A program made the position numbers and the translations under genes. A DNA stretch of 64,000 nt. Origin: Oscillospiraceae bacterium (lineage in GTDB: Bacteria > Bacillota > Clostridia > Oscillospirales > CAG-272). This document shows, one piece after another, positions 16,430 to 62,661 of this stretch. The notes beneath the pieces were generated by a model that saw only the letters and a program-made list of their open reading frames with translations, ran no database searches and was not told the DNA's origin. The first letter of the stretch is position 1. Every line of letters begins with the position of its first letter. The DNA lies in NCBI GenBank assembly GCA_015063305.1, contig SVUJ01000001.1, positions 86,262-150,261 on the forward strand, given 5' to 3'.

Positions 16430-16866
16430 ACCTGCCCCGGAAAGGTTCTCCCTTTAACCCTCTCCAAACCTTTTTAAACTATTTTTAGCTACAGACTGTT
16501 TGTTTTGCTTTATAGCCTTCCTCCGGGAGGAAGGGGGACCGCATAGCGGTGGAAGGAGAGTGCGGTATATTAAAATTAGTTTAGTGTTATTGTAACGCGC
16601 TCTCCCTCAGTCGCCTACGGCGACAGCTCCCTCCCGGAGGGAGCCTTTTTTCGGACGATTCGTGAATCGCCCCTACATTCGGCGAGAGATAAACCCCCGC
16701 CCTACGGTTTGAGGTGACGATTAGTTTTCTATTTTATGTTTTGCTTATTTGTTTGTTTTTCGGGGCGTCGAGGGGCGGGTATGACCCGCGGCAAAAATCG
16801 GGGTAGTTCCCACTATTCGCTTGCTTCAACCCGATGGTGAAGATAGTGTAAAAAGGTTCTCCCTTG
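16430..16866. repeat. Intergenic repeat mosaic including a four-hairpin MITE-like element (16514-16648)
   Basis: 16514-16756 is near-identical, in inverted orientation, to 21857-22102. Confidence 0.9.
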
Positions 16867-21565: not shown

Positions 21566-22105
21566 GGAAAGGTTCTCCCTTGACCCTCTCCAAACCTTTT
21601 TAAACTATTTTCACCATCGGGTTGGAGCAAGCGAATAGTGGGAGCTACCCCGATTTTTGCCGCGGGTCATACCCGCCCCCTCAAAAACTTTCAAACTGTT
21701 CTTGGCTACAGTGACGAGGTTTAGATTGTAATGTTTATACAAGGGTCGTCGTAGGCGCCGACCCCTACCACGAAAATTATAATCTAACTTCACCACGGTG
21801 TGGCAGACATTATTTTATAACCGGTAGGGGTCGGCGCCTACGACGACCCTTAAAACAAACAAATAAGCAAAACATAAAATAGAAAACTAATCGTCACCTC
21901 AAACCGTAGGGCGGGGGTTTATCTCTCGCCGAATGTAAGGGCGATTCACGAATCGTCCGCAAAAAAGGCTCCCTCCGGGAGGGAGCTGTCGCCGTAGGCG
22001 ACTGAGGGAAAGCGCGTTACAATAACACTAAACTAATTTTAATATACCGCACTCTCCTTCCACCGCTATGCGGTCCCCCTTCCTCCCGGAGGAAGGCTAT
22101 AAAAC
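21548..22105. repeat. Intergenic repeat mosaic with 29-bp perfect inverted repeat and MITE-like element
   Basis: 29-bp arms 21741-21769 and 21823-21851; 21857-22102 inverted copy of 16514-16756. Confidence 0.9.
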
Positions 22106-33540: not shown

Positions 33541-34165
33541 TGGTTGAAGGATAATTACCCCGATCTGTTGCCGCGGGTCATACCCGCCCCTTCCAAACCT
33601 TTTCACACTATTTTTTGCTACAGTGATGAGGTTTAGGTTGTAATGATTGTACAAGGGTCGTCGAGGGCGCCGACCCCTACCACGAACATTATAATCCGAC
33701 TTCACCACGGTGTGGCAAACAATATTTTATAATCGGTAGGGGTCGGCGCCCTCGACGACCCTAAAAATAATAAATAAGCAAAACATAAATCAGAAAATCA
33801 AACGTCATGTTACCCAAAGCCTCTCCCCTTGGGAGAGGTGGCACGACGAAGGAGTGACGGAGAGGGTGAATATTTTCAAATGCCCTCTCACCCGCTATCG
33901 CGGGAGCTCTCCCAAAGGGAGAGCCTATAATAAAAAACCCCACCATCGGGGCGGGTAAAACCCGCGGTAACAGATCGGGGTAATTATCCTTATCTTTTAA
34001 TCCACACCCGATGGTGGGGGTTGCTATATAGCCTTCCTCCGGGAGGAAGGGGGACCGCATAGCGGTGGAAGGAGCCTGCGTAACAGTAAGTTTTGGTTAA
34101 TTTTATTGCAACGCACTCTCCCTCAGTCGCTCCGCGACAGCTCCCTCCCGGAAGGAGCCTTGCAG
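33541..34165. repeat. Intergenic repeat mosaic: perfect 28-bp IR, second hairpin family, MITE-like copy
   Basis: IR arms 33654-33681 and 33735-33762; MITE-like 34026-34160; ggctctccctttgggagagctcccgcgatagcgggtgagag-type element at 33817-33925. Confidence 0.85.
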
Positions 34166-55886: not shown

Positions 55887-58529
55887 ATGCAGTGGACATC
55901 TTTAAATGAGCTCAGAGAAAAATATCTTTCCTTCTTTGAATCGAAGGGACATCTCAGACTCAATTCTTTCCCGTTGGTTCCCATCAACGACAAATCTCTT
56001 CTTTTGATAAATTCGGGAATGGCTCCGATGAAAAAATATTTTACAGGCGAGGAAGTGCCGCCCCGCAGCCGCGTGACGACCTGCCAGAAGTGTATCCGTA
56101 CGCCCGACCTTGAGCGTGTGGGTCATACCGCGCGTCACGGTACGTATTTTGAGATGCTTGGCAACTTCTCGTTTGGCGATTATTTTAAGGATCAGGCTAT
56201 ACCGTGGGCGTGGGAGTTTCTCACCGAAACACTCGAGATCCCCACAGACCTTCTCTGGCCCTCTATATACGAGAATGACGAGGAAGCCTTTGAGATATGG
56301 AGCAAGAAGATCGGCGTTCCCACAGAGCATATAGTTCGCCTCGGTAAGGCGGATAACTTCTGGGAGCACGGCTCAGGTCCTTGCGGACCTTGCTCCGAAA
56401 TATATTTCGACCGCGGAGAAAAATACGGCTGCGGCTCGCCCGACTGTAAGCCCGGCTGCGACTGCGACAGATTTATGGAGATATGGAACAACGTATTCAC
56501 TCAGTTCAGTAACGACGGAAACGGAAATTATACCGAGCTTGAGCAGAAGAACATAGATACCGGTATGGGTCTTGAGCGTCTTGCCTGTGTTATGCAGGGA
56601 GTGGACAACCTTTTTGAGGTAGACACCGTGAGAAAGATACTCAACACGGTCTGCGCTATCGCGGGTAAGGAATACGGCGCTGATGCCGATGATGACGTTT
56701 CGATAAGAGTTATCACCGACCACATCAGAGGCGCTACCTTTATGATATCCGACGGAGTTATCCCCTCGAACGAGGGCAGAGGCTACGTGCTCCGCAGAAT
56801 ACTCCGCAGAGCTTGCCGTCACGGAAAGCTCCTCGGAATAAACAGAGCATTCCTCACCGAGCTTTGCGAGGTGGTGATAGGCGAGAATATCTCGGCGTAC
56901 CCCGAGCTCGGAGAGAAGAAGAGCTATATAATAAAGGTCATTGAGAACGAGGAAACGAGATTTGACGCGACGATAGACGCGGGACTTAATATCCTTTCGG
57001 GTATGATAGCCGATGCTATCGCCGAGAACAAGACGGTTATCGGCGGCGAGGACGTCTTCAAGCTTTACGACACGTTCGGCTTCCCGATAGACCTCACAAG
57101 AGAGATAGTTGCCGAGAAGGGACTTTCGATAGACGAGGATACCTTCGTAACTCTTATGAACGCTCAGAAGAGCAGAGCGAGAGCGGCAAGAGGAAATATC
57201 GGCGGTTGGGACGAATCCTCAAAGCAGATGCTTGCCGACCTCCCTAAGACCGAATTCGTTGGATACGACAGCTTTGCAAGTGACGCAAAGGTCCTTGCTA
57301 TCATAGTAGAGGACGAGGACGGTGCGCGTACCGTTGACGAGATAAGCGAGGGAGATTTCACTCTCGTGCTTGACAAGACACCCTTCTACGGAGAGGGCGG
57401 CGGTCAGGTGGGTGACAGCGGAGCGCTCAAGGCAGATGGCCTTGAGATAGCCGTTATTGACACCAAGAAGACCGACGGAGTATATCTGCACATCTGCTCA
57501 CTCGTAAGCGGAGCGGTAAAGGTTGGAGATGGCGTTTCGGCAGAGCTTGATGCCGACAGACGCCGCGCTATAATGAGAGCTCACTCCTGCGCACACATTC
57601 TTCAGGCGGCGCTTCGCGAGGTGCTTGGAAACCACGTTGAGCAGGCGGGCTCTTACGTTGAGGGCGACCACGTTCGCTTCGACTTCACTCACTTTGCGGC
57701 TATGACCAAGGAAGAGCTTGCGGCTGTTGAGGCTATAGTCAACGCGAATATACTTCTCGGAGAGCAGATATCCATGACCGAGATGCCTATAGACGAGGCT
57801 AAGAAGCTTGGCGCTATGGCACTCTTCGGCGAGAAGTACGGAAGCCTTGTAAGAGTTGTAAGAATGGGTGATATCTCTATAGAGTTCTGCGGCGGTACTC
57901 ACCTTGATAACACCGCGAAGATAGGAATGTTCAAGATAGCGTCCGAGTCCTCTGTGGCGGCGGGCGTGAGAAGAATAGAGGCGAAGACGGGACTTGGAGT
58001 TCTCGCTCTTATCGCCGAGCAGCAGAAGCTGATAAACGATGCGGCATCGGAGCTTAAGGCGCAGAATCCCGCAGACCTCTGCAAGAGAGCGGCGGCTGTT
58101 CAGGAAGAGCTTCGCGCCTCTAAGCGAGAGATAGACGCGCTCAATTCCAAGCTCGCGGCATCAAAGCTCGGAGATATTCTTTCGGGCGCTGTAGAGGTGG
58201 GAACGGTACGTCTTGTGCGCGCAAGCTTCGAGGATATGCAGCTTGACGCGGCACGCGCGCTTGCTGACGACCTGAAGGCTAACCACGCCGACGTTGTTGC
58301 CGTACTCGCTGTAAACGCGGGCGGAAAGCTCAACTTTATCGCTGTTGCGGGTAAGGCTGCCGTTGCGGCGGGCGTACACGCCGGAAAGCTGGTTGGAGCT
58401 GTTGCGGCTGTAACAGGCGGAAAGGGCGGCGGACGTCCCGACAACGCTATGGCGGGCGGCGCGGACGCGACCAAGATATCCGAGGCGCTTGAATCTGCCG
58501 AGGCGACCCTTAAGGGAATGATAAAGTAA
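55887..58529 (+). CDS. alaS: Alanyl-tRNA synthetase
   Basis: 880 aa; LREKYLSFFESKGHLRLNSFPLVP...; C-terminal GGKGGGRPDNAMAGG. Confidence 0.98.
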   Translation: MQWTSLNELREKYLSFFESKGHLRLNSFPLVPINDKSLLLINSGMAPMKKYFTGEEVPPRSRVTTCQKCIRTPDLERVGHTARHGTYFEMLGNFSFGDYFKDQAIPWAWEFLTETLEIPTDLLWPSIYENDEEAFEIWSKKIGVPTEHIVRLGKADNFWEHGSGPCGPCSEIYFDRGEKYGCGSPDCKPGCDCDRFMEIWNNVFTQFSNDGNGNYTELEQKNIDTGMGLERLACVMQGVDNLFEVDTVRKILNTVCAIAGKEYGADADDDVSIRVITDHIRGATFMISDGVIPSNEGRGYVLRRILRRACRHGKLLGINRAFLTELCEVVIGENISAYPELGEKKSYIIKVIENEETRFDATIDAGLNILSGMIADAIAENKTVIGGEDVFKLYDTFGFPIDLTREIVAEKGLSIDEDTFVTLMNAQKSRARAARGNIGGWDESSKQMLADLPKTEFVGYDSFASDAKVLAIIVEDEDGARTVDEISEGDFTLVLDKTPFYGEGGGQVGDSGALKADGLEIAVIDTKKTDGVYLHICSLVSGAVKVGDGVSAELDADRRRAIMRAHSCAHILQAALREVLGNHVEQAGSYVEGDHVRFDFTHFAAMTKEELAAVEAIVNANILLGEQISMTEMPIDEAKKLGAMALFGEKYGSLVRVVRMGDISIEFCGGTHLDNTAKIGMFKIASESSVAAGVRRIEAKTGLGVLALIAEQQKLINDAASELKAQNPADLCKRAAAVQEELRASKREIDALNSKLAASKLGDILSGAVEVGTVRLVRASFEDMQLDAARALADDLKANHADVVAVLAVNAGGKLNFIAVAGKAAVAAGVHAGKLVGAVAAVTGGKGGGRPDNAMAGGADATKISEALESAEATLKGMIK

Positions 58530-58566: not shown

Positions 58567-58705
58567 TTAAATTTATGTAATATTTATTTGTTGCTATGAA
58601 ATCGTTTTTTGAAAAATGGACCGGCGTCCTCGATGGTCCATAAATATTTACAAAAAGGGCAGAGGATTTTTGCGCTGTTGTTCTTAACGGAGAGATTGCA
58701 AGCAC

Positions 58706-59155
58706 AAAATTTCGGCAGAAGGACTTTTCTTTCTGCCGATTTTGTGATATAATGGAAACAATGAGCATGGGAGTAAATATGTCACTTGAGTATAACGAAA
58801 AGAATATTACTCTTGCCAAAAATCTGCGCAAAAATGCGACACCGCAGGAAAATCATTTGTGGTACGATTTGAGGGTAATTTGTTTTATAAACATACAAAT
58901 CGACACAAACTTTCGTGGTGTCTGCGAGTATATCGATGCCGTCGTAAAAGCCTCCCTCCGAGAGGGAGGGGGACCGCCTTAGCGGTGGAAGGAGCCTGCG
59001 TGACTTAAAAATTGCGATAATTTCACTGTAACGCACTCTCCCTCAGTCGCCGTTGGCGACAGCTCCCTCCCGGAGGGAGCCTATATACACGCTCGCGCAT
59101 CTTCAAGGGTATGGACTTTGCCCGATGCGTTTGTAATACAAATGCGAAACTAGCG
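58706..59155 (+). repeat. Left arm of a long inverted repeat (hairpin promoter, DUF559 remnant, MITE-like element)
   Basis: Reverse complement of 60503-61135 apart from an internal deletion within the DUF559 gene. Confidence 0.85.
58779..58982 (+). pseudogene. Internally deleted DUF559-type endonuclease-like gene
   Basis: MSLEYNEKNITLAKNLRKNATPQENHLWYD then jump to INTNFRGVCEYIDAVVK-type tail; ~60 residues present in the 60680-61057 copy are missing. Confidence 0.8.
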
Positions 59156-59221
59156 ATAAAACAGAACGATAAATAAGAATTTACCAACCAATCTCAAACA
59201 ATACGATAGGAGGAAACGAGT

Positions 59222-59920
59222 GTGCGTTATTTTAGATATAAGAATACTGACAAAAATGTTAATAATGCACTTAAAGAGCAATATAAAACCTTGACCGAAG
59301 ATGAAAAACGTAGATTTCGCAAGAAAAAACGTTTGGAAAAATTCAGCACAATAGTCACCCTTACCATTTTTATTTGCTGCATGATTGCCGAAATATTTCT
59401 TCTCAAATCAATTCCAGTGCCTAATCACATACTCTTAGAAGCTCTTGTTATTGTCGGCAAAGTCATTGTTGGTTTTGTTTTGTTAATTGTCAGTGCCGGT
59501 TTAACAGCTATATTGGTAACTCCTTTGTGGAAAAAGGTTGAAACATTTGATATCCCCTTGATGAAGAAAGAGATTTTTTCAAAAGCTTGCAAGCATTTGC
59601 GCGATTATTACCATTTGCAAGAACCCTATATCATAACCAAGTGCTTTGAGGCAACAGACAAGAACTTCCAAAATCACGATGTGTGTATTTTTGTTGTCGG
59701 AGACGAGTTGCGAATTACTACAGATTTAATTCAAGGATTTCTTCATGGTGAAAGAGATTTAGGGTGTTATGCGTTTAAAAAAGAGGAAATCACGCTGTTA
59801 AAACGAAATAATGGAAACCATTTAGTCGCCGAGTTGAGAACAGATGACACTGTATTTCTACTGGGTTATCGTGCAAAAAGATTTATAGATAACTTCTTTA
59901 TTTCAAAGACAGTTTGCTAA
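59222..59920 (+). CDS. Uncharacterised membrane protein (two predicted TMs, soluble C-terminal domain), GTG start
   Basis: 232 aa; AGGAGG upstream; hydrophobic segments at ~41-66 and ~76-98. Confidence 0.75.
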   Translation: MRYFRYKNTDKNVNNALKEQYKTLTEDEKRRFRKKKRLEKFSTIVTLTIFICCMIAEIFLLKSIPVPNHILLEALVIVGKVIVGFVLLIVSAGLTAILVTPLWKKVETFDIPLMKKEIFSKACKHLRDYYHLQEPYIITKCFEATDKNFQNHDVCIFVVGDELRITTDLIQGFLHGERDLGCYAFKKEEITLLKRNNGNHLVAELRTDDTVFLLGYRAKRFIDNFFISKTVC

Positions 59921-59946
59921 ATTCCAATTTATCTAACAGAATAAAA

Positions 59947-59985
59947 GAACCCCGACAGATTTTTGAAAGTCTGTCGGGGATTTGT
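59947..59985. terminator. Bidirectional terminator between convergent genes
   Basis: CCCCGACAGAtttttgaaagTCTGTCGGGG. Confidence 0.75.
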
Positions 59986-59994
59986 TTAAGTAAT

Positions 59995-60486
59995 TCAATC
60001 CGTGTTATTGTTTTTCCATTTCCTGATTTTATTGACATTCGAGGAACTTAAACACCAAATTATATATTTTTTGTTATCAACTGTTTTTATAGTTACCTTA
60101 TTGGAAGAACCGCCTTTGCCGTGAACCAACTTAGAATTTATGGATTTAATGTGACTTTTGTATATTGAACTAATTCCAGCCCGTATAAGCCAATCTTGCG
60201 AAAGATACAATGTTGCTTCTAGCCTAATAACATTATCGTCATTAAACTGCACCCCATACAGTTGTTCTTGCATTTTGATCATCTTTTTGAAGCGAATAGT
60301 GTATAACGAGGCGATTGCAACACATATAGCAGCAATTACAAAAGGTGCAAATGCAATCAAAGTGTCTTTCGGTATGACATCATATATCAGTGATACGATA
60401 AATGAGGGGATAAATCCAATGCTTGCACAAAAGAAAGCTAACAGGCAATTCCGTCTGTTGTAGATATGAATGTATTTGTTTATCAT
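59995..60486 (-). CDS. Uncharacterised membrane protein (two predicted TMs, possible PH-like C-terminal domain)
   Basis: 163 aa; SD AAAGGAG upstream; hydrophobic segments ~15-35 and ~43-62. Confidence 0.75.
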   Translation of the reverse strand: MINKYIHIYNRRNCLLAFFCASIGFIPSFIVSLIYDVIPKDTLIAFAPFVIAAICVAIASLYTIRFKKMIKMQEQLYGVQFNDDNVIRLEATLYLSQDWLIRAGISSIYKSHIKSINSKLVHGKGGSSNKVTIKTVDNKKYIIWCLSSSNVNKIRKWKNNNTD

Positions 60487-60502
60487 AAAAGCTCCTTTCT
60501 GT

Positions 60503-61135
60503 TTGTCGCAAATTTCACATTTGCGTTACAAAGGTACCAGGCAAAGCCCATACCCTTGAAGATGCGCGAGCGTGTATATAGGCTCCCTCCGGGAGGGAGC
60601 TGTCGCCAACGGCGACTGAGGGAGAGAGCGTTACAGTGAAATTATCACAATTTTTAAGTCACACAGGCTCCTTCCACCGCTAAGGCGGTCCCCCTCCCTC
60701 TCGGAGGGAGGATTTTACGACGGCGTCGATATATTCGCAGACACCACGAAAGTTTGTGTTGATTTGACGGTTTGTAAATCTGATTAATTTCAGATCGTAT
60801 CCTTCAAGGATTTCAGTTCGGAAATCGTCTTTTTGTCTGCCTTCTTCGGTGTAATGCTGCGAGCCATCAATTTCTATGATCAATTTTGCTTTATGACAAT
60901 AAAAGTCTGCGATAAAATTATCGATTGCTTTTTGGCGTTGAAATCTTACTTCGTATTTCGATAAAAAATCATACCATAAATGATTTTCTTGGGGTGTTGC
61001 GTTTTTGCGTAGATTTTTGGCAAGAGTAATATTATTTTCGTTATAATCAAGTGACATAGCTACTTCTCCAAAATTTCACTATATCCATTATAACACAAAT
61101 CGGCAGAGGGAACAATACCTCTGCCGAAATTTGTA
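60503..61135 (-). repeat. Right arm of the long inverted repeat
   Basis: Inverted counterpart of 58706-59155. Confidence 0.85.
60680..61057 (-). CDS. DUF559-type (Vsr-like fold) endonuclease-like protein
   Basis: 125 aa; LRKNATPQENHLWYDFLSKYEVRFQRQKAIDNFIADFYCHKAKLIIEIDGSQHY; C-terminal SLREGGGPP encoded by the adjoining repeat. Confidence 0.88.
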   Translation of the reverse strand: MSLDYNENNITLAKNLRKNATPQENHLWYDFLSKYEVRFQRQKAIDNFIADFYCHKAKLIIEIDGSQHYTEEGRQKDDFRTEILEGYDLKLIRFTNRQINTNFRGVCEYIDAVVKSSLREGGGPP

Positions 61136-61199
61136 GAGAGCCGTGTATCTGCATAGATTCTCCGTTAAGGACAACCGCGAAAAGCCCTATGTCTTTTAA

Positions 61200-61835
61200 T
61201 TATATGTGTTTGTAATGCTCGCAAAATTCTTTTATCGGGCATTCGTGGCACTTCGGGGAGCGCGCGGTGCAGGTATCTCTGCCAAACTGAACTATTCGGT
61301 GGCAAAAATCCGATTGCTCCTCGGTGGGGATAAGCTCGGACATTATCCTCTCGGTCTTCAGCGGGTCTTTTACACTCTCGGGGTACATTCCGAGTCTGCC
61401 GCATATCCTTATACAATGCGTGTCGGCAACGATGCCGCCCTTGCCGTATATATCTCCAAGCAAAAGATTGGCTATCTTTCGTCCCACGCCGGGCAGAGCG
61501 AGCAGATCGTCCATATTGTCGGGAACGGCGCTGTCAAAGCTATCCCTGATTATGGTACAGGCTTCCTTGATGCTCTTTGCCTTGGTTCGGTAAAGTCCGC
61601 AGGGGCGAACAAGCTCTTCTATCTCCGAAAGCTCACCGTCCGCCATAGCCTCAAGCGTTGGAAAACGGGCGAAAAGCTCACGGCACACTATATTCACCCT
61701 CGCGTCGGTGCATTGCGCCGAAAGGCGCGCCATAACAAGGAGCTTCCAGGGCTCACCCCCGTATTCAAGGGCGCAGAGCGCCTCGGGGTAGAGCTCCGCC
61801 AAGCGCTCGGTTATGAGCGCCATTCTTTTTTTCTT
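61200..61835 (-). CDS. nth: Endonuclease III (approximate start; ORF track extends to 61865)
   Basis: LLVMARLSAQCTDARVN...LPGVGRKIANLLLG...VADTHCIRICGRLG; C-terminal CTARSPKCHECPIKEFCEHY Fe-S motif. Confidence 0.95.
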   Translation of the reverse strand, partial: KKKRMALITERLAELYPEALCALEYGGEPWKLLVMARLSAQCTDARVNIVCRELFARFPTLEAMADGELSEIEELVRPCGLYRTKAKSIKEACTIIRDSFDSAVPDNMDDLLALPGVGRKIANLLLGDIYGKGGIVADTHCIRICGRLGMYPESVKDPLKTERIMSELIPTEEQSDFCHRIVQFGRDTCTARSPKCHECPIKEFCEHYKHI

Positions 61836-61842
61836 TTCGTTC

Positions 61843-62661
61843 TTATTCATTTTCTCTCTTTTCACGCAAGGATTTGTCTGCCTTGAAGTAAGTTCCTATG
61901 TGTCCGCCGTCAAGCAGAACGTAGAGTATCTCGGGGTCTTGACCGTTGATTATAAACATAGGTATTCCGCAGTCGTTTACTATCTTTGCGGCGTTGAGCT
62001 TGGCTATCATTCCGCCCGTGCCCCTGTCAGTGCCCGCTCCGCCCGCGATAGAGTAAAGCTCGTCGGTTATGCCGTCGACCTTGGTTATAAGCTTTGCCGA
62101 GGGATTCTTTCTGGGGTCGGAATCGTAAAGTCCGTCAACGTCCGACATATTTATCAGAAGATCGGCGTGGCAGACCTTCGCTATGTAGGCAGAGAGGATA
62201 TCATTTCCGCCGAACTTGGTGAGCTCGTCGGTCGATATGGCGTCGTTCTCGTTTACTATCGGGATACAGTGCATAGCAAGCAGACGGTCAAAGGTATTCT
62301 CGGCAGCCGCGCGGCGCACGGGGTTATCGAGAACGTCCTTAGTCATAAGTATCTGCGCCACGGTGTGGCCGTAGACAGAGAAGAATTGATCATAAAGCTT
62401 CATAAGCTCACTCTGACCGATAGAGGAGAGCGCCTGCTTTTCCTCGGGAGTAGAGGGAATATGACCGTATCCGCTCTTCGCAACGCCCGCGCTGACTGCT
62501 CCCGATGATACGAGCACCATCTCTATGCCCGAGTTCTTCATATCGGATATCACCTTTACGAGCGACTGTATCCTTCGCAGATTAAGGTGTCCCGTTGAGT
62601 GTGTGAGGGTGGAAGTACCCACTTTAACAACTATTCTTTTGCAATCTCTTAAATAAGCCAT
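61843..62661 (-). CDS. proB: Glutamate 5-kinase (no PUA domain)
   Basis: RIVVKVGTSTLTHSTGHLNLRRI...FGGNDILSAYIAKVCHADLLINMSDVDGLYDSDPRKNPSAKLI. Confidence 0.95.
   Translation of the reverse strand: MAYLRDCKRIVVKVGTSTLTHSTGHLNLRRIQSLVKVISDMKNSGIEMVLVSSGAVSAGVAKSGYGHIPSTPEEKQALSSIGQSELMKLYDQFFSVYGHTVAQILMTKDVLDNPVRRAAAENTFDRLLAMHCIPIVNENDAISTDELTKFGGNDILSAYIAKVCHADLLINMSDVDGLYDSDPRKNPSAKLITKVDGITDELYSIAGGAGTDRGTGGMIAKLNAAKIVNDCGIPMFIINGQDPEILYVLLDGGHIGTYFKADKSLREKRENE

Follow-up and report, generated by a model that had tools for sequence, protein, structure and literature searches.

Two head-on expression cassettes between alaS and nth, probable members of an undescribed transposon-like family in an Oscillospiraceae genome

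The block between alaS (55887–58529) and nth (61200–61865) in the 64,000-nt stretch of DNA analyzed here (the window) most probably consists of two expression cassettes that stand head-on in a terminator between the two genes and belong to an undescribed, transposon-like and non-autonomous family; we put the probability of this reading at roughly three in four. In the proposed frame, terminal inverted repeats of about 20–25 bp would be outermost and would enclose a promoter overlapped by a hairpin, a variable slot, a two-hairpin leader (conserved block, CB), one exchangeable cargo gene and a terminator hairpin. Sequence comparison established the frame and its end repeats, the position of the cassettes in split terminators, how diverse the cargo is, and that one cargo can occur with different slots at separate sites; from these comparisons we infer that the cassettes are mobile.

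The cassette block (58668–61179) is made up of two convergent units. An initial annotation had described inverted copies with the same order of parts, and we found them to be slightly longer than noted, at 58669–59160 and 60502–61183, enclosing two convergent genes; the matching arms are I1 (58863–59160/60502–60799, 90%), I2 (58772–58870/60966–61064, 89%), I4 (58669–58693/61159–61183, 88%), and I3 and I5 in the hairpin and promoter. The order in each cassette, from the outside inward, is end repeat, hairpin promoter, DUF559, four-hairpin MITE, CB, Shine-Dalgarno region and membrane gene. On the plus strand, cassette 1 begins with the terminal inverted repeat T1 (TTCTTAACGGAG, 58670–58698), which pairs with 61157–61179 and whose motif also ends other T1 elements. 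A hairpin overlapping the promoter follows at 58712–58753 (CGGCAGA..TCTGCCG, with the -10 element TATAAT at 58748–58753), the hairpin being computed and the promoter assigned by inspection. Next come a DUF559 remnant with an in-frame deletion of 58 codons (58779–58982), a MITE of palindrome type D that is 98% identical to the right copy and has 31 matches in its own genome (58949–59082), the CB leader before the cargo, whose structure is kept by covariation (59104–59161), and cargo 1, a membrane protein of 232 aa with a weak DUF3784 match below the cut-off (59222–59920). On the minus strand, cassette 2 has T1 at 61157–61179, the hairpin-promoter at 61087–61127, an intact DUF559 nuclease gene of 125 aa whose 3' end reads into the MITE (60680–61057), the type D MITE at 60580–60713, CB at 60502–60556 and cargo 2, a membrane protein of 163 aa, at 59995–60486. 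A bidirectional terminator (CCCCGACAGA..TCTGTCGGGG, 59950–59979, no strand assigned) is common to both cargos. The two membrane proteins have no similarity to each other, in agreement with the initial annotation, and relatives of cargo 1 were absent among the other fetched loci. As its two cargos show no relationship, the pair does not represent a whole cassette duplicated in inverse orientation; it is two similar cassettes placed head-on.

The pair extends from T1 to T1 over 2491 bp, and both of its ends are of the left type; each cassette keeps its left end repeat only. Outside it lie two target arms with no strand assigned: on the left a partly decayed half of a host intrinsic-terminator stem (AAAAAGGGCAGAGG..., 58652–58669), and on the right a terminator stem just 3' of the nth stop codon (GCGAAAAGCCCTATGTCTTTT, 61177–61197), to which the left arm is weakly complementary (score 8.0). 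The weak match of the outer arms and the lack of both right-hand end repeats mark the locus as old or rearranged, and it is best interpreted as a pair of cassettes in the nth-side terminator that are old and have been rearranged. Inversion between two cassettes was considered as its origin and rejected, because the reciprocal arm of the nth side was not found in the genome (94.6% complete), nor was a second copy of the right target arm. The clean empty site between alaS and nth that the initial annotation had suggested looking for was not found, and alaS was not found beside nth in the other genomes of the genus searched.

Parts of the frame recur in the window and in its genome. Within the window, the hairpin motif matches 20 times against 0.09 expected, and thus is not due to chance. 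Apart from the window's gene, a single DUF559 gene in this genome (G000:C16) exceeds the cut-off. It shares with the window cassettes the upstream motif TTCTTAACGGAGA, the CGGCAGA hairpin-promoter, CB and the kind of terminator, and differs from them in having another palindrome family around DUF559 and another membrane gene. It is one example of DUF559 with a palindrome and other cargo, for which a search had been recommended; neither conserved synteny of the whole block nor a lack of co-occurrence of DUF559 and hairpins elsewhere, the two outcomes named beforehand as contrary evidence, was observed. A third frame copy in the genome (G000:C7) has a RAYT/Y1 transposase in the place of DUF559, and therefore frame and slot are separate things. 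A covariance model of CB detected 93 copies in 24 of the 30 genomes of the window's genus and, across the family, found the frame in 82 of 196 genomes and 41 of 71 genera, with up to 28 copies per genome. The exact CB pattern was present in at least 116 stretches of GTDB genomes, those listed being MAGs named Clostridia, Clostridiales, Oscillospiraceae or Eubacteriales and derived largely from the ruminant gut; it had no match in viral contigs, and a cassette at another locus (L289) had none when searched against plasmids.

We collected 168 distinct CB copies, whose slots contain a MITE in 66 cases, RAYT in 27 and DUF559 in 12, the remainder being short or empty. The hairpin-promoter element lies upstream of CB in 109 of 147 copies, and the same terminator hairpin (CCCGACAGA..TCTGTCGGG) stands after 102 of 116 cargo genes. 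Complete cassettes span about 0.65–1.5 kb. Most copies lack a transposase and carry a passenger gene instead. The 124 cargo genes fall into 99 clusters, of which 81 are singletons, and are of types typical for accessory genes: GNAT acetyltransferases (17/121), small kinases, NUDIX, HD and methyltransferases. A scan of the cargo for defence functions gave a few scattered candidate matches with no theme. At three loci (L063 3149–3204, L185 and L420), CB is followed by similar short repeat-like reading frames (VIFFALAKSDIIA...) with no ordinary cargo gene.

The two hairpins of CB are conserved (96.7% of cells paired versus 94.2% after shuffling, 0/500 shuffles), and one pair switches from C-G to A-U in 21 copies. 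Searches of Rfam gave weak matches far below the gathering scores and no known RNA family. A structured block that adjoins an exchangeable small gene, together with a cargo spectrum of GNAT, NUDIX and kinases like that of integron cassettes, would be expected if an integrase used CB as an attC-like site of single-strand recombination. However, the CB consensus from 110 copies has no GTT, hence no attC core, and the cassettes are dispersed and have their own promoter and end repeats, so that an integron-like system is barely credible here.

Cassette end repeats are of two types, T1 (TTCTTARCGGAGAA) and T2 (GGTTCTCATAAGGA), and, two pairs apart, the left and right ends of a cassette are of one type (T1/T1 or T2/T2). 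CB is enclosed in 47 of 49 end pairs, a figure biased by the fact that the loci were mostly fetched by CB. These repeats (TTCTTARCGGAGAA or TTCTCATAAGGA) stand outside the DUF559 units, which the initial annotation had suggested as possible ends of a mobile or rearranging cassette with exchanged cargo, the nuclease possibly acting on the hairpin ends. In this view, the nuclease would cut the hairpin ends to exchange cargo. Two inverted DUF559 units do flank both genes of the window, and DUF559 and palindromes coevolve; yet most cassettes lack DUF559, those without it still vary in cargo, the terminal repeats lie further out, and cargo 2 has been found with RAYT replacing DUF559. We therefore regard DUF559 units as cassette ends to be very improbable.

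Beyond the end repeats, the cassettes are bordered on either side by one arm of a split host intrinsic terminator, as in AATAAAAAACAAGCGGCA–cassette–TGCCGCTTGTTTTTTATT. The median complementarity of the outer arms is 13.0, versus 7.0 for swapped arms, and 27 of 44 elements reach at least the 99th percentile of swapped arms (p=1.2e-17); in a mostly independent sample, 5 of 9 did so (p=1.5e-4). As their flanks are the arms of host terminators, the cassettes sit in terminator loops, and they presumably insert there. The T-rich spacers found beside the outer arms fit a target duplication of about 3 bp or a Y1-type target equally well. REP-like palindromes headed by GTAG (GTAGGGACCGGCGTCCTCGACGGTCC, GTAGGGGCGTTCTGTGAACGCCC) were also seen near cassette ends at L289 (4440–4680), L355, L356 and other cassettes, and at L289 even within the reading frame of RAYT.

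A cargo with 84% identity to cargo 2 occurs in L289 and in L339/L416 (one locus of genome G339, from another genus), and this identity across genera compares with 62–81% for nth within the window's genus. Over 650 bp, starting at CB and reaching shortly beyond the terminator, L289 and L339 share 97% identity; their slots (RAYT versus DUF559 and MITE) and their sites are unlike. Further cargos recur with other slots. Comparison of the flanks showed recurring cargos at unrelated sites, and recurring sites with different cargo or orientation. These observations on cargo 2, on the L289/L339 pair and on the recurring cargos and sites support two processes, movement of the whole element and swapping of cargo inside the frame, and the initial view of a mobile-type cassette with exchanged cargo is upheld in this respect. 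A search for empty sites with joined flanks in the genus genomes and all fetched loci, which are diverged and represented by one genome per species, gave no spanning match; at L214/L215, orthologous left genes end in ordinary unoccupied terminators. The frame might instead be a recombination platform only, its promoter, leader and terminator repeats spread by homologous or illegitimate recombination and its cargo exchanged by gene conversion between copies, with no transposition. The stretch shared by L289 and L339 begins at CB and ends just past the terminator, as exchange inside repeats predicts, and the same sites do recur with different cargo; but this explanation leaves unaccounted for the matched types of end repeats at both ends and the constant distance from the ends at which terminators with no relation to one another are split, and we consider it unlikely.

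According to the transposon-like reading, a cassette would move as DNA through recognition of its own end repeats, with the T-rich loop of terminators as the probable target, and cargo would also be exchanged within the frame, CB and the terminator serving as the places of recombination. Insertion into a terminator would disrupt no gene, and promoter, gene and terminator would arrive ready for expression. Mobilization would occur in trans, and the first candidate for the enzyme is the RAYT of the slot, a Y1 transposase present in 27 of the 168 copies. In nearly all full-length RAYT copies the stop codon abuts CB, which puts RAYT first among the candidates, and its case is weakened because RAYT clades show no correspondence with the T1 and T2 end types; the window cassettes have no RAYT. 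A more specific form of the same explanation names the enzyme: the cassettes would be RAYT elements, that is, IS200/IS605-like units (end, promoter, RAYT, CB, terminator, end) that capture downstream genes, the copies without RAYT having decayed. The abutting stop codon, a match to PF01797, the RAYT tail kept directly before the terminator at L354 and the RAYT start before the cargo at L357 all suit this form. Against it stand the small share of slots filled by RAYT, the independence of RAYT clade and end type, and the lack of signs of IS-like mobility in published RAYTs (PMC2817692), and we hold it to be possible but doubtful. In a limited search, no DDE or other transposase was found with cassette ends. 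No autonomous relative was seen among T2 copies without CB: the internal copies inspected proved to be additional cassettes, remnants of RAYT or matches by chance, and many others stopped at contig ends. One distant RAYT-like match occurred in an unannotated record labelled as phage.

The occupant of the slot in the window deserves separate consideration. The right DUF559 protein, initially called intact, matches PF04480 with 94.5 bits against a cut-off of 20.6, and its nearest solved chain is 3hrl, 'Endonuclease-Like Protein' (E=1.4e-8); we take the DUF559 fold to be that of a PD-(D/E)XK-type nuclease. The left remnant, said to lack about 60 codons, scores 17.5 bits, below the cut-off, and its 58-codon deletion likely removes the catalytic region. 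The four-hairpin element of type D proved to be a genome-wide MITE with about 30–35 copies in the window's genome; further type D copies without DUF559 lie in the window at 16514–16649, 21963–22098 and 34030–34161. Palindromic ends are beside or around DUF559 in all 29 genes of the genus whose flanks were read. Strong inverted ends around DUF559, judged against windows further out, were found in 16 of 27 cases in the genus and in 22 of 27 in the order, covering many families, and 0 of 170 controls reach 15. On the DUF559 tree, which has few columns and many open forks, the five end types require 5 changes (minimum 4) versus about 30 when shuffled. The tracking of the DUF559 tree by end type indirectly supports the earlier suggestion that the nuclease acts on hairpin ends, for MITE ends and not for cassette ends.

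Within the window's genus, the type D gene adjoins a complete MITE and stands just before it, and elsewhere in the order DUF559 genes with type D ends lie between two MITE halves (L384). We infer that the MITEs derive from DUF559 elements and are non-autonomous. The copy number of MITE-D is weakly associated with the presence of DUF559-D (p=0.02), and one genome with no detected DUF559 carries 29 MITE-D copies. At order-level DUF559 loci in many families (L367–L396), palindromic ends enclose the genes and their type follows the protein tree; DUF559 with palindromic ends at this level is a candidate for a new nuclease-based mobile element. Two loci (L053 and L056, in G005 and G021) have a type C DUF559 element just before apparently the same gene (translation start MESYKREF), so that two species have it in the same place. 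At two others (L055 1323–2539 and L029 1392–1760), a third end type (ACTCTAAAGGACAGTTT) was seen, around a unit with DUF559 and around a short one that has no CB; these may be a sister class of cassettes.

DUF559 and its palindromic MITE would then form a second, nested selfish element, in which the nuclease acts on its cognate palindromes; in the window, the left copy of this element would be dead and the right one intact. The wider proposal joins two new kinds of mobile DNA, one nested in the other: a family-wide set of single-gene expression cassettes that move into the loops of intrinsic terminators, and a lone DUF559 nuclease that spreads its cognate palindromic ends and MITEs, as a nuclease-based parallel to RAYT/REP. 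We advance it tentatively, at somewhat less than an even chance. If it is true, a whole family of gut Clostridia has terminators as safe harbours for exchangeable, ready-to-express genes, and this would be a route of gene gain that breaks nothing and has been missed by annotation. The link between DUF559 and palindromes would likewise suggest a first function for a large, little-characterized family of nucleases and account for where very common palindromic MITEs come from.

Our search of the literature, mainly that outside subscription journals, yielded no account of such cassettes and no relevant paper joining DUF559 with palindromes, MITEs or inverted repeats; as no paper was found, we describe the cassette family and the DUF559-palindrome element as previously undescribed. 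Among known systems, phage morons are single genes with their own promoter and terminator, and the present cassettes resemble them in this point, but are chromosomal, and viral contigs gave no match to the CB pattern. Integron cassettes carry cargo of GNAT, NUDIX and kinase type, and the core of the attC recombination site is GTTRRRY; the likeness lies in a content of small accessory genes, GNAT and NUDIX among them, that can be exchanged, whereas our cassettes lack the attC core, have their own promoter and end repeats, and are dispersed. IS1397 is an example of an IS that uses REP palindromes as its target. Such targeting is reported for some IS elements (PMC2817692), and a hairpin structure is likewise the insertion site here, but the target is an intrinsic terminator, and cargo is carried instead of the element's own transposase. 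RAYT genes coevolve with REP repeats, and for RAYT units no cargo has been described and no signs of IS-like mobility have been seen (PMC2817692). RAYT in a subset of the cassettes and the many palindromic repeats recall that system, and its coevolution of protein and repeat is mirrored by DUF559 and palindromes, but most cassettes have no RAYT and do have exchangeable cargo. Closest in kind are mobile insertion cassettes of the MIC231 type, reportedly the work of Chen et al. in 1999. These have terminal inverted repeats around a passenger gene that replaces the transposase and are mobilized in trans (PMC6542083); they are not known to have an expression frame, a terminator target or an inner slot. 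The present cassettes likewise combine matching terminal inverted repeats with a passenger gene and differ in having a standard promoter, a structured leader, a terminator, very diverse cargo and sites in terminator loops.
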